Positions 36,732 through 41,609 of a DNA stretch of 64,000 nt are shown one piece after another; positions within the stretch are counted from its first letter, which is position 1, and every line of letters begins with the position of its first letter. The position numbers and the translations under genes are program-made. A model generated the notes under the pieces. It ran no database searches and was not told the origin of the DNA. It was given only the letters and a program-made list of their open reading frames with translations. Origin of the DNA: Euhalothece natronophila Z-M001 (GTDB lineage: Bacteria > Cyanobacteriota > Cyanobacteriia > Cyanobacteriales > Rubidibacteraceae); NCBI RefSeq assembly GCF_007904085.1, contig NZ_CP042326.1, positions 124,001-188,000 of the forward strand, read 5' to 3'.

Positions 36732-36778
36732 TTGTTATTTGTTTGTCCTTCGTTGTTTGTCCTTCGTCCTTTGTAAAC

Positions 36779-36876
36779 CAATGACCAATGACCAATGACT
36801 AATGACTAATGACTAATGACCAATGACCAATGACCAATGACCAATGACCAATGACTAATGACTAATGACTAATGAC
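36779..36876. repeat. 14-unit (C/T)AATGAC heptamer array
   Basis: The 14 perfect-length units are ordered CAATGAC x3, TAATGAC x3, CAATGAC x5, TAATGAC x3. The left flank contains TTTGTCCTTCGT twice, then GTAAACC. Its right end overlaps the last codons and stop of the minus-strand DUF255 gene. It is of the short tandemly repeated repetitive (STRR) type known in cyanobacteria. Confidence 0.92.
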
Positions 36877-38920
36877 TAATTGTTATTTCTTTAACTTGAG
36901 ACATGAGTTGTTCTTGAGTCATTGCTGCTTCTAAACAGCTTAATCCCTGACAAACTAAAGCAACTGCATCAGGGGGTAGCGCCGTTGCTACTTCATAAGC
37001 ACAAGTGGGAAAATACTGGGGAATTAATGCTTGTAATTGTTCTGGAGTAGAACGAACTAAGGCACTGTGCAGATACCAATCCAAACCAGAAAATAATCCC
37101 GGACAGGCTTGGGGAGATTTCTCCATAATACTACTAAAGGCTTGCAGAGTTTGTTCGGCGCTACTGAGATAGTCTAGTTGTTCTTTGAGGAGAAATAAAC
37201 GCACTAAATTGGTAACAGCAACCCCATTCGCTGCAGGAGTGGCATTATCTATATAGGTGCGTTCCCGAATAATTAATTCACTACTACTATCTTTAGCGGT
37301 GTTGAAATAGCCTCCTTCTTCGGAACTCCACAAATATTGATCAAATTCGGCTTGGAGTTGGGTAGCGTGATCTAACCATTCTGTTTGTTCAGGATGACAG
37401 GAATAAAGATCAAGAAGGGCTTTAATAAAGAGGGCATAATCTTCTGATTGGGCAGGAACAGTGGCTTTTCCGTTATAGTTGAGACGATAAAACCGTCCTT
37501 CTACCCATTGATTCTCCCAGATAAACTTAGCCGCTTTAACGGCACAATGCCAGTAATTTTCGTTGCCAAAGACAGCATAAGCCCTTGCTAACCCAGAAAT
37601 CATTAAGCTATTCCAAGCGGTGATCATCTTGGTATCAGTGACAGGGGGAATACGCCCTTGCCAGTTTTCTTGCTTGGCTTGGCTGTTATTTTCGGCTGGG
37701 GGAAAGGTGCTGATTTCGGTAGAAGCCTGACCATAGCGGGCTTGAAATAACTTTTCTAAGGCATTTTTAGCGGTTTCAGAGAGGTTTCCTAGTTCCTTGC
37801 GTTGTAGAACATTACTACCTTCAAAATTTCCTTCTGCGGTAACGGTAAATTCAGATTGAAGGGCTTGTAATTCTTCTGCACTAAGCAGGGTTTCTAATTC
37901 CCGATACGACCAAACATAAAATGCCCCTTCTTCTGGTTCATCTGCATTAGGAGTGGTAAAGCTATCTGCGTCTTGGGAAGCGTAGAAATATCCCTCTGGG
38001 GCGGTCATTTCCCGTTCTAGCCATTTCACTGTTTCCTCAATGGCAGTGGCAAAGGCTGGTTCTTTAACGCCAGAACTCCACAAGTTAGCAAGATACTCGA
38101 CAATTTGTCCATTATCATAGAGCATCTTTTCAAAGTGGGGAACTGTCCAAGTCGCATCAACTGTGTAACGGTGGAAGCCACCGCCGACATGATCATAAAT
38201 GCCCCCAAGGGCTAAATCCACTCCTCGTTGGTGGGTAATTTCTTGTGCATCGTAGCGCGAGTCATAACTAAAACGGGTTCCACGCAGGGCTAATTCTGCA
38301 TAGGGAATCATGGGAAAACTAGGGGCAGTTCCGCGATTACTGGTAATGCCAACGCCTGTTTCGATGCCTTGGAATAATAAATCTTTATTAAGAGGAGTAT
38401 CAGAGGTGGGAAGACTTGCGGATCGTTCTAATAACCCCATGACCTCACTTTTGAAGTTATTTAGTTTTTCTTTTTCTTGGTCATAAAATCGCCGCACGGC
38501 TTTCAGGATTTCTAGGAAACCAGGGCGACCAAAACGGGGTTCAATGGGGAAATATGTGCCACCATAAAAGGGAACGCGATCGTCTGGTGTGAGGAAAATA
38601 TTCAGGGGCCAACCACCTTGTCCGGTCATCATCTGTAACGCCTGCATATAGATGCTATCAAGGTCGGGGCGTTCTTCGCGATCGACTTTAATGGGAAGAA
38701 AGTTCTCATTCATATACTGCGCGATCGCGCTATCAGAGAAGGCTTCTCCCTCCATGACTGTACACCAGTGGCAACTAGAATACCCCACAGAGAGGAATAT
38801 CGGTTTATCTTCGGCTGCTGCTTTTTCTAGGGCTTCGGGACACCAATACCACCAATCAATAGGGTTTTCCGCGTGTTTCCGCAGGTAGAGGCTTTCGGTT
38901 TGAGCGAGACGGTTGGTCAT
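36869..38920 (-). CDS. DUF255 thioredoxin-fold protein (YyaL/SSP411 type)
   Basis: This 683-aa protein has an N-terminal thioredoxin-like domain (RLAQTESLYLRKHAENPIDWWYW, then SVGYSSCHWCTVME with CxxC, C50-C53) and a long alpha/alpha-toroid domain (GGIYDHVGGGFHRYTVDATWTVPHFEKMLYDN). Such proteins are widespread and of unclear function; the second domain resembles N-acylglucosamine epimerase-like folds. The last residues, I-S-H, and the TAG stop come from the heptamer array. ATG 38920. Confidence 0.88.
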   Translation of the reverse strand: MTNRLAQTESLYLRKHAENPIDWWYWCPEALEKAAAEDKPIFLSVGYSSCHWCTVMEGEAFSDSAIAQYMNENFLPIKVDREERPDLDSIYMQALQMMTGQGGWPLNIFLTPDDRVPFYGGTYFPIEPRFGRPGFLEILKAVRRFYDQEKEKLNNFKSEVMGLLERSASLPTSDTPLNKDLLFQGIETGVGITSNRGTAPSFPMIPYAELALRGTRFSYDSRYDAQEITHQRGVDLALGGIYDHVGGGFHRYTVDATWTVPHFEKMLYDNGQIVEYLANLWSSGVKEPAFATAIEETVKWLEREMTAPEGYFYASQDADSFTTPNADEPEEGAFYVWSYRELETLLSAEELQALQSEFTVTAEGNFEGSNVLQRKELGNLSETAKNALEKLFQARYGQASTEISTFPPAENNSQAKQENWQGRIPPVTDTKMITAWNSLMISGLARAYAVFGNENYWHCAVKAAKFIWENQWVEGRFYRLNYNGKATVPAQSEDYALFIKALLDLYSCHPEQTEWLDHATQLQAEFDQYLWSSEEGGYFNTAKDSSSELIIRERTYIDNATPAANGVAVTNLVRLFLLKEQLDYLSSAEQTLQAFSSIMEKSPQACPGLFSGLDWYLHSALVRSTPEQLQALIPQYFPTCAYEVATALPPDAVALVCQGLSCLEAAMTQEQLMSQVKEITISH

Positions 38921-39002: not shown

Positions 39003-39326
39003 TCAGTATGTGTTCTTTGCTGATGTATGATCTAACTGCTCAATTGTTTGACCAAGCTGGAATAACTGAAGTTCAAGTGCCTCACCATAATCAAGAGCAT
39101 TTTCAGGACGAGTTTTGATCCCTCGTACTAAAGCCGCCATCCGAGCTTGTATTTTGTTTCCTCGCTGTTGCGCTAGCTGAGAAAGCTGGAACAATTGAAA
39201 TTCAAGTGCCTCACCATAATCAAGGGCATTTTCAGGACGAGTTTTGATTCCTCGTACTAAAGCCGCCATCCGAGCTTGTATTTCTCTTAAATCTTTCGTG
39301 CAGGCAGAATGGATCATGATTGACAT
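39003..39326 (-). CDS. Two-repeat protein, member 1 of a paralogous pair
   Basis: About 107 residues contain two nearly identical 43-residue repeats. Each reads A-R-M-A-A-L-V-R-G-I-K-T-R, then PENALDYGEALE, then LQLFQLxQ. ATG 39326 is chosen because AGGAGAGG lies 7-14 nt upstream and the product then aligns from its start with the paralogue at 41146-41448; a longer frame to 39386 is less likely. The repeats are also near-identical in DNA (129-nt period), so the second repeat is a recent duplication. I recognise no family. A direct-repeat regulatory element is 100 nt upstream. Confidence 0.7.
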   Translation of the reverse strand: MSIMIHSACTKDLREIQARMAALVRGIKTRPENALDYGEALEFQLFQLSQLAQQRGNKIQARMAALVRGIKTRPENALDYGEALELQLFQLGQTIEQLDHTSAKNTY

Positions 39327-39426
39327 AGCTTTTTCCTCTCCTAACAAGCGTAATTTAGTTTTATTTTTAAGGTAAACCAAGGACATTGATCTAGATTACA
39401 TCAAGATTAGCAATTTTACACCCTAT

Positions 39427-39447
39427 AAATCTCATATAAATCTCATA
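39427..39447 (-). promoter_or_regulatory. 11-bp-phased direct repeat upstream of repeat protein 1
   Basis: On the minus strand ATGAGATTT occurs twice, with starts 11 nt apart (ATGAGATTT-AT-ATGAGATTT). An 11-bp phase is typical of OmpR/PhoB-family response-regulator sites. The same 21 nt occur upstream of the paralogue (41589-41609). Confidence 0.6.
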
Positions 39448-39485
39448 AGTATGTAGTTAGTATCAACCTAGCAAGAGATTAAGCC

Positions 39486-39522
39486 ACGCGATTGCCTTCT
39501 GCAAGTAGTGAAGCCAGATCGC
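39486..39522. repeat. REP-like imperfect palindrome, copy 2
   Basis: CGCGATTGCC-TTCT-GCAAGTAG is followed by GATCGCGC. It matches the copy inside IS1182 (22367-22404) in core and spacing, with arms CGCGAT/ATCGCG. Confidence 0.5.
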
Positions 39523-39605
39523 GCTTCTGGAAAAGAATTTTCGTAAAATGAAGAATAATCATCATCCTGAAAAATACTAATCTTCAAGTCCCTTAATACG
39601 TACAA

Positions 39606-40889
39606 TCAACTAGGTGACATTATCACTGCACCATAAGCATCAGGAGAGAGATATTTTTGGGCGGCTTTTTGGAGATCCTCGGGGGTAAGATTTTGAATGA
39701 CTTGTGGATAATTAAATGCAGGATTCAAGTCTCCTAATTGCGAGAAGAAATAACCATAAAGGTTTGCGCGATCGCTGGGTTTTTCATTGCCAAAGATATA
39801 ACTATTCGCTACCTTGGCTTGAATGCGGTTTAACTCAGCAGAACTCACTTCTTCTTGTTGCAGACGTTTAATTTGTTCAACAATGGCTGTTTCTACTTGT
39901 TCTAAATTTTCCTGAGGAAGTTTTGCTGATACAGAAAAATGTCCTTGCAATTTTTGGGTAGAATTACCTGCAGCGATCGCGCTGACTAACTTTTCCTCTT
40001 CCCGTAATTGACGGAATAATCGTGACACCTTTCCTTGTCCCAAAATAGCCGCTAACACATCTAGAGCATAAGTTTCTTGTAAATTATCTAACCCGGGTAC
40101 TCGCCACAACATCACTAGTCGCGCTTGCTGTAATTGCGAATCTTGATAAGAATTACGAACAATCTCAGAAAAAGGTTTTTCTGGTGCGGGAAAGGAGACA
40201 CTTGTTGGTAACGGAGAATAACATTGAGGCGCAATTTTCTCCCATGCTTCTGTAACTGTATTAATTAAGGTTTCCACAGGCAAATTTCCCACCACACTCA
40301 CCGTCATATTTTGAGGGTGATACCATTGACGATGAAATTCACGCATTTGTTCAGGAGTGACTTCAGAAATCACTTCAGCAGGACCTAAAACAGGACGACG
40401 ATAGGGAAGAGACTGAAAACAGGTTTCCATCGCCCGCGCATAAGTCCGACGCATCGTATTATCATCACTGCGACGGATTTCCTCTAGAACAACTTTCTTT
40501 TCTCGCTGAAACTCATCTTCAGGGAGACTAGGGTTTGTCACTAATTCCAACTGTAAGGGGGCAAGTTCCGTAAAATTTTGAGGGGCAGTAGTAATGTAAT
40601 AATGGGTGTAATCTTGGCTAGTAGCTGCATTCATCATCCCCCCTCGTTGTTCTACCAACCGATCAAACTCTCCAGGCTTGAGGTTCGGGGTTCCCTTAAA
40701 CATCATGTGTTCCAAGAAATGAGCCATCCCATTAATAGCATCTGGTTCCACAGAGGATCCCACTTGAAACCAAATATTGAGGTTAACGGCTTCCACAGGA
40801 AGTTGTTCTGCAATAATCGTAAGACCATTGCTAAGTTGATGAATAGTGGGAATATTAAGAGCAGGAGTATTAAGAACAGTCGAGGTCAT
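39606..40889 (-). CDS. M16-family zinc metallopeptidase
   Basis: This 427-aa protein has the inverted zinc motif HFLEH (H57, E60, H61; GMAHFLEHMMFKGT) and the downstream acidic ligand region EEIRRSDDN. The second, inactive half is typical (AILGQGKVSRLFRQLREEEKLVSAI, near residue 285). It belongs to the processing-peptidase/PqqL group; cyanobacterial members often occur as two adjacent genes, but only one is here. It lies between the two repeat-protein genes on the same strand. It has no signal peptide. Confidence 0.9.
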   Translation of the reverse strand: MTSTVLNTPALNIPTIHQLSNGLTIIAEQLPVEAVNLNIWFQVGSSVEPDAINGMAHFLEHMMFKGTPNLKPGEFDRLVEQRGGMMNAATSQDYTHYYITTAPQNFTELAPLQLELVTNPSLPEDEFQREKKVVLEEIRRSDDNTMRRTYARAMETCFQSLPYRRPVLGPAEVISEVTPEQMREFHRQWYHPQNMTVSVVGNLPVETLINTVTEAWEKIAPQCYSPLPTSVSFPAPEKPFSEIVRNSYQDSQLQQARLVMLWRVPGLDNLQETYALDVLAAILGQGKVSRLFRQLREEEKLVSAIAAGNSTQKLQGHFSVSAKLPQENLEQVETAIVEQIKRLQQEEVSSAELNRIQAKVANSYIFGNEKPSDRANLYGYFFSQLGDLNPAFNYPQVIQNLTPEDLQKAAQKYLSPDAYGAVIMSPS

Positions 40890-40977
40890 ATCTTAGCGAT
40901 TCAATCCATAAAGAATACTCCCTTGATCTTAATCCCTAAGTCTTGGATTTTTCTATTCCTGCTGTGATAGTGTTTTT

Positions 40978-41140
40978 TTGAGCCTCTTCTGCCTAAAGGC
41001 GAGAAGATTCCCTTGTAGACTCTTATCTAGATTTAACTCTTAGAGTTAAATCCCCGACAGACCGCCGTTACAGGGCTGTTTGGTCACGGTCGCTCCAACC
41101 GCAGACACTTACATCTTAACACAGAACGCCATAAATGGCG
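40978..41140 (-). pseudogene. Decayed IS605-type right end with tnpB 3' fragment
   Basis: On the minus strand, 41012-40978 reads ATCTTCTCGCCTTTAGGCAG followed by AAGAGGCTCAA. It resembles the right-end hairpin of the second TnpB element (GCCTTTAGGC flanked by CCCCT/AGGGG, ending TGTCAA). Further upstream, a frame reads C-G-W-S-D-R-D-Q-T-A-L before a stop, reminiscent of the final RuvC/zinc-finger motif of TnpB. The rest of the element is gone. Confidence 0.45.
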
Positions 41141-41145
41141 GGGTT

Positions 41146-41448
41146 TTAAACCCGTAATTTTACGATAATTTCTCCAAATTGAAATAATTGAAATTCTAGC
41201 GCTTCAGCATAATCAAGGGCATTTTCTGGGCAAGATTTGATCCCCAGAATTAAAGCTGCTATGCGATCTTCAACTTGAATTGCCTGCTCTAGGGAAGCTT
41301 GACGAAGCTGAAATAATTGAAATTCTAGCGCTTCAGCATAATCAAGAGCATTTTCTGGGCAAGCCTGAAGTCCCCTAACCAAAGCAGCTAGATGAGCTTC
41401 TATGATTCTTAAAGCTTGAACTTGGTTATTATAAATAATGCTGTTCAC
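41146..41448 (-). CDS. Two-repeat protein, member 2 of a paralogous pair
   Basis: This 100-aa protein has two repeats of about 44 residues sharing A-A-L-x-x-G-x-x-x-C, then PENALDYAEALE and FQLFQ. It is clearly homologous to the protein at 39003-39326, with cysteine (ACPENA, SCPENA) where that one has arginine. There is no signal peptide and no recognisable domain. The predicted structure is helical hairpins. The same 21-nt upstream element as the paralogue lies 141 nt before ATG. Confidence 0.75.
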   Translation of the reverse strand: MNSIIYNNQVQALRIIEAHLAALVRGLQACPENALDYAEALEFQLFQLRQASLEQAIQVEDRIAALILGIKSCPENALDYAEALEFQLFQFGEIIVKLRV

Positions 41449-41588
41449 TTGTTCTTCCTTCTCGTTTCATCAACCGAGATAACAACCGTTTATTTACTCA
41501 CCTAAGTGATACATTTTTGACGTACTTAAAATTTTTTTACTACGTATATTAACATAATAAAGGGACAACTTAAGGATTGACCACTAAA

Positions 41589-41609
41589 AAATCTCATATA
41601 AATCTCATA
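41589..41609 (-). promoter_or_regulatory. 11-bp-phased direct repeat upstream of repeat protein 2
   Basis: It is identical over 21 nt to the element at 39427-39447, while the surrounding sequence is unrelated. This supports a shared regulator rather than simple duplication of the whole upstream region. Confidence 0.6.

Follow-up and report, generated by a model that had tools for sequence, protein, structure and literature searches.

The window, a stretch of 64,000 nucleotides from the genome of Euhalothece natronophila Z-M001, carries two small genes on its minus strand, here called twin A (39003..39326) and twin B (41146..41448). Between them, on the same strand, lies an M16 peptidase gene assigned by Pfam (39606..40889), which belongs to the context and is outside the element described below. 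Twin A encodes a 107-aa protein made up of two near-identical units, and twin B encodes a 100-aa protein that likewise has two units and starts with GTG. For twin A, the ATG at 39326 was favoured over a start at 39386 because of its ribosome site (AGGAGAGG, eight nt before the ATG) and the N-termini of the homologues. The twins are paralogues, and a coding stretch of 249 nt is 71% identical between them. At the DNA level the identity of the internal units was 95% in twin A (A1-A2) and 80% in twin B (B1-B2), compared with 74-76% between the twins. The units are thus more alike within than between the genes, indicating either a separate internal doubling or a homogenisation, such as by gene conversion, after the gene duplication.

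A profile built from the units found this family in only 4 of the 388 genomes of the order, all of them in the genus of the window: the Z-M001 genome (G000) has two genes, and G001, G002 and G005 have one each. By the same profile no family gene was found in the congeneric genomes G003 and G004 (the latter 85% complete), and a class-wide draw of 388 genomes returned the family once, in G000 itself. The genes of the relatives have a single unit (ORFs of 57, 60 and 67 aa), and in G001 and G002 the family gene lies upstream of the corresponding M16 peptidase gene. A transposase-like ORF that looked TnpB-like by eye was seen between the family gene and the peptidase gene in G001 (L006 1825-3078), and another directly downstream of the family gene in G005 (L007 1789-3009). 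Elsewhere in the window, between two genes at 36777-36880, a 7-bp unit (ACCAATG, with variants) is repeated about 15 times in tandem; short tandem repeats of this sort have been described in cyanobacteria.

Neither twin protein reached the cut-off of any family in Pfam or NCBIfam; a PucR hit of twin B (E 5.5e-5, 23.9 bits against a cut-off of 33.5) was taken as chance. A sequence search of the PDB gave nothing better than E 0.25. The structure predicted for twin B from a 5-sequence alignment was a four-helix bundle with a mean pLDDT of 91.9; a fold search with it returned no match at E <= 0.001, and the best hits were designed four-helix bundles. No family member was found in the plasmid collection or among the viral contigs. 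The wider genome contig collection yielded no match with a single twin as query and two loci with the unit profile, one of them being the contig of G002. A profile match of 29 residues on a goat-gut Clostridia contig (L041) was set aside as chance.

An identical 21-mer upstream of both twins

Upstream of each twin lies the same 21-mer, box A at 39427..39447 and box B at 41589..41609. Its sequence is TATGAGATTTATATGAGATTT when taken from the minus strand, which encodes both genes. The earlier note had described these two exact copies and the difference of their flanks, and both observations were confirmed. The longest string common to the 250-bp upstream regions of the twins was the 21-mer itself, whereas in 300 Markov resamples of these regions the longest common string averaged 8.0 and never exceeded 13. 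Outside the 21-mer, the resamples scored at least as high as the observed flanks in 202 of 300 cases on the 5' side and in 194 of 300 on the 3' side. The flanks of the twins align no better than resampled DNA, and have diverged around an identical 21-mer. Each box holds two head-to-tail units, and Tandem Repeats Finder reported period 11 at both places. The units of box A, read along the strand that encodes twin A, are ATGAGATTTAT (39446-39436) and then ATGAGATTT (39435-39427). The 20-mer used for searching begins 120 bp before the start codon of twin A and 160 bp before that of twin B.

In the whole own genome (3,524,308 bases, 5 contigs) this 20-mer had exactly two matches at <=3 mismatches, both before the twins, and its reversed control had none. 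Apart from the two exact copies, nothing in the window came within 4 mismatches of it, and 0 of 100 dinucleotide shuffles of the window contained two matches at <=3 mismatches. Random scatter of the motif through the genome, which the earlier note had set against its own reading, was not seen. A perfect 21-mer between unrecognisable flanks has the look of a constrained site. Judged from the sequence, the 21-mer is a conserved cis-regulatory site and not a chance repeat, and very likely serves as the docking site of a protein that would control the small-protein gene family.

The same type of site was found in the relatives. A direct repeat in 11-bp phase (consensus ATKAGATTTRT) precedes all five family genes found in the four genomes, and the best site of each gene begins 114-165 bp before the start codon, on the strand of the gene. 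In G001 (4.18 Mb), both matches of the 20-mer at <=3 mismatches are upstream of its one family gene; they read TTGAAATTTATATTAGATTT and, 24 bp on, ATGAAATTTGTATTAGATTT, and make up four units in two pairs 24 bp apart, with 11, 13 and 11 bp between successive units. G005 also has two such matches, one of which (ATTAGATTTATATGAGGTTT) is upstream of its family gene. The site of G002 (ATTAGTTTTGTATTAGATTT) has 4 mismatches to the 20-mer and was located in the 250 bp upstream of the family gene. Among the 12 half-sites listed, positions 2, 4, 7, 8 and 9 are invariant. All matches to the degenerate pattern ATKAGATTTRTATKAGATTT with 0-1 mismatch in nine genomes of the taxonomic family sit upstream of small-protein family genes, and the exact pattern ATKARDTTTNTATKARDTTT had 9 matches in the six genomes of the genus against 0 in reversed controls, and 5 of these 9 precede family genes. 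As the two patterns derive from these very sites, the independent evidence lies in the search with the 20-mer. Since relatives with one single-unit gene also carry the box, it is probably older than the duplication that gave rise to the twins in G000.

At <=3 mismatches, ATKAGATTTRTATKAGATTT had 8 matches in the own genome, the two of the twins included, vs 7 for the reversed control, and 44 vs 41 in the nine genomes of the taxonomic family; by these sequence counts the regulon detectable in the own genome is the two twins. Some match of the 20-mer at <=3 mismatches occurs in 54 of 100 relatives, so a match alone means little and it is the position that counts. Copies of ATGAGATTTATTAGAGA(T/C)TT, 11 in G046 and 5 in G003, look like multicopy repeats, and in G003, which is without a family gene, 5 of the 6 matches of the 20-mer at <=3 mismatches are one multicopy sequence. 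The string TTAGATTTAAGTGAGATTT is common to three species; in the two that were read it fell within a gene that looked Uma2-like by eye, and it was dropped. The exact matches of ATKARDTTTNTATKARDTTT in the genus that are off the family (4 of the 9) fall at three places. One is on contig C70 of G002, near the contig end. The other two are boxes of the same type, at L059 1501-1520 (G005, contig C200), where a lipoprotein-like ORF of 64 aa follows at a distance of 125 bp, and at L090 1148-1178 (contig C336 of G004, where the family was not found); it is possible that these two boxes mark further members of the regulon.

The earlier note had also suggested that the twins belong to a shared stress or nutrient regulon. 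The shared element stands, being unique to the twins in their genome and kept before three homologues, while nothing supports a stress or nutrient signal.

Promoter context and candidate regulators

We consider it reasonably probable that the 21-mer is the operator of a factor that binds direct repeats, most likely a dimer of an OmpR/PhoB-type response regulator, near the promoters of this genus-restricted family. The site would consist of two asymmetric 11-bp half-sites (ATKAGATTTRT) placed head-to-tail on the same face of the helix. A transcription factor, from the layout most likely a response regulator dimer of the OmpR/PhoB type, would bind this direct repeat, either covering the -35 region or lying directly upstream of it, a position from which the bound regulator would be expected to activate. 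One regulator would read both boxes, so that the twins would be co-regulated. An OmpR-type regulator is suggested because the head-to-tail phase of 11 bp, roughly one turn of the helix, is that of SphR boxes and of the CcaR G-box.

For twin A, a consensus scan gave a possible -10 hexamer TAAAAT at 39413..39418 on the minus strand, 8 bp downstream of box A, with a nominal -35 TTTATA (from 39440) at a 16-bp spacer that falls inside the box. For twin B, the same kind of scan gave TATTAT at 41554..41559 (minus strand), with a nominal -35 TGGTCA (from 41583) at an 18-bp spacer, which starts 6 bp downstream of box B. The spacing from box to -10 is thus unequal, 8 bp for twin A vs 29 bp for twin B, and the promoter-like hexamers are weak, since the scan found 4 such sites against a shuffle mean of 6.6.

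Nine OmpR-type regulators were found in the own genome. A PF00486 search of the genus (six genomes) returned 61 rows, 59 of which were covered (all but the G005 rows on contigs C99 and C98), and the comparison took in ORFs 181-319 aa long that had relatives in 3 or more genomes. For seven of the nine, each of the five other genomes of the genus holds a reciprocal best match; the eighth (L163) has one in four of them and is absent only in G004, which is 85% complete. The ninth (L161) has an orthologue in G001 and G005 and a 54% match in G003; it has no orthologue in G002, although G002 carries the box. Thus the four gene-carrying genomes all share eight of the nine, which the gene-lacking G003 has as well, and G004 has seven of these. 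Because the eight occur in G003 too, presence does not discriminate among them and none is singled out. By NCBIfam, two of the nine pass the RpaB cut-off, one that of NblR and one that of RppA.

The OmpR/PhoB-type 11-bp phase proposed in the earlier note was upheld as regards the layout, which has the period of 11 of the SphR/PhoB and CcaR boxes; binding by an OmpR-type protein is putative. An OmpR/PhoB reading of the box is plausible. The finding matters in that a small-protein family, found here in only one cyanobacterial genus, gains a shared control site that can be tested. The 21-bp box offers a defined bait for the regulator, and the nine OmpR-type regulators of the genome are few enough for all of these candidates to be gone through.

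Arrays in other cyanobacteria and rival readings

Across the order, exact ATKARDTTTNTATKARDTTT had 160 matches in 109 of 388 genomes vs 90 in 73 genomes for the reversed control; with so many control matches, many single matches must be chance, and the strongest loci are tandem arrays. Beyond the genus there were arrays of three to eight units (in genus g61, and in G331 of g83) as well as pairs. In g61 the array is embedded in some 200 bp of conserved sequence at the 8 places aligned. This stretch with its 11-bp array was seen at L241-L246 and L091, with two occurrences in G235 and two in G256, and 241 bases of it, tried against the plasmid collection, were not found there. The genes near the g61 arrays had Pfam matches to PatG domains, a marginal match to a cytolysin beta-sandwich and an HBL match below the cut-off. 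In G331, eight tandem 11-bp units of ATTAGATTTAT were observed at L249 2285-2370, outside any long ORF. Three closely related viral contigs have a three-unit 11-bp array (L261 8579-8609, L262 2306-2336 and L263 1783-1813); their surroundings are near-identical, and these arrays may be a coincidence in A/T-rich DNA.

The box might instead be the operator of a STAND-type ATPase (AAA_35/NB-ARC) with an N-terminal region that appears HTH-like by eye and that would putatively bind DNA as a head-to-tail oligomer, as MalT does. A gene of this kind lies within 1.5 kb at 6 of 20 loci elsewhere in the order (L251, L252, L255, L257, L259 and L260) and at 0 of 58 comparison loci (Fisher p 0.00015), and in G003 the beginning of an AAA_35 gene (L049) is overlapped by a weaker site that departs from the degenerate pattern by 2 mismatches. 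However, the association was post hoc: the 20 loci were hand-picked for strong matches to the 11-bp pattern, are mostly longer (3.0-12.8 kb) than the comparison loci (mostly 3.0 kb) and include the orthologous pairs L251/L252 and L255/L257, and the comparison set omits L222, which coincides with L257. Moreover, neither the window nor the examined flanks have such a gene close to the twins. The association of arrays and ATPases is a lead only, and we regard an ATPase operator at the twins as unlikely. Wider still is the proposal that the box belongs to a new class of cyanobacterial (ATKAGATTTRT)n arrays that spans several of the order's families and would be read by AAA_35/NB-ARC STAND ATPases with an N-terminal HTH-like region, the twins then being targets of a conflict or danger switch and not of a classical two-component system; we would give it only a small chance. 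The portion of PMC7159879 that was available has no mention of AAA_35. If it were true that the longer arrays elsewhere share a reader protein with the box, the bait would give access to a larger regulon.

An element of the RNA, placed in a long 5' leader and acting on stability or translation, would suit a box 95-165 nt from the start codon, but the helical phase of 11 bp and the repetition of units, fourfold in G001 and as much as eightfold in the more distant G331, suit a DNA-binding protein, and no Rfam family reached threshold in 14 loci with such boxes; we hold this to be quite improbable. That the 21-mer is a relic of the duplication, inert and spared by chance, draws on the paralogy of the twins and is hardly credible, as the 21-mer is identical while its flanks keep no residual similarity, and the like phased repeat before the single-copy homologues in G001, G005 and G002 largely refutes it.

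Comparison with published boxes

Within the literature searched, and our claim of absence from print extends only that far, we found no paper on a CcaR G-box direct repeat in cyanobacteria, and TTAGATTT was not found tied to a cyanobacterial response regulator. Broader terms likewise brought up no cyanobacterial box in titles and abstract openings. The part of the Halothece transcriptome paper that was available (PMC9374696) has nothing on the twin gene.

The box was aligned to published consensus sequences with 400 shuffles per site, and none of the five published boxes compared was a good match. RpaB HLR1 (KTTACAWW-N2-KTTACAWW) is a direct repeat bound by an OmpR-type regulator, with a 10-bp phase and a TTACA core (PMC13421787, in part), and the window box differs in both; an identity was rejected, since the window box scored 9/16, which 400 of 400 shuffles reached. 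The RppA site (AAMAWCTCYYWCCCC) contains AWCTC (PMC13421787, in part), which is similar to the AATCTC that the box shows on its plus strand. It was also rejected: the window box scored 9/15, reached by 226 of 400 shuffles, and has no CCCC.

The Pho box of SphR/PhoB in Synechocystis consists of CTTAACCT repeats with an 8-bp unit and a 3-bp linker, that is, a phase of 11 bp (PMC1906773, in part), and is like the window box in its direct repeats of that phase. Its consensus matched the window box at 10/16 on the opposite strand (20 of 400 shuffles reached this) and the G005 site at 11/16, again on the opposite strand (1 of 400), whereas the G001 and G002 sites gave 8/16, reached by 374 and 167 of 400 shuffles. 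However, the repeats of the Pho box have a TTAA core, which is needed for PhoB binding (PMC11126600, in part), and neither window box contains it, so that identity with the SphR Pho box was rejected.

The CcaR G-box (CTTTCCGATTTCTTTACGATTT) is an 11-bp direct repeat as well (PMC8256508, in part), and as far as it is described there it shares with the window box both this arrangement and the GATTT that ends each unit. It matched the window box at 14/22 on the same strand, a score that 0 of 400 shuffles reached, and the sites of the relatives at 13/22 (reached by 46, 5 and 27 of 400 shuffles for G001, G005 and G002, respectively). Its CTTTNC part is absent from the window box. By sequence alignment the CcaR G-box thus appears to be the nearest of the published boxes compared, and the window box resembles it only partly.
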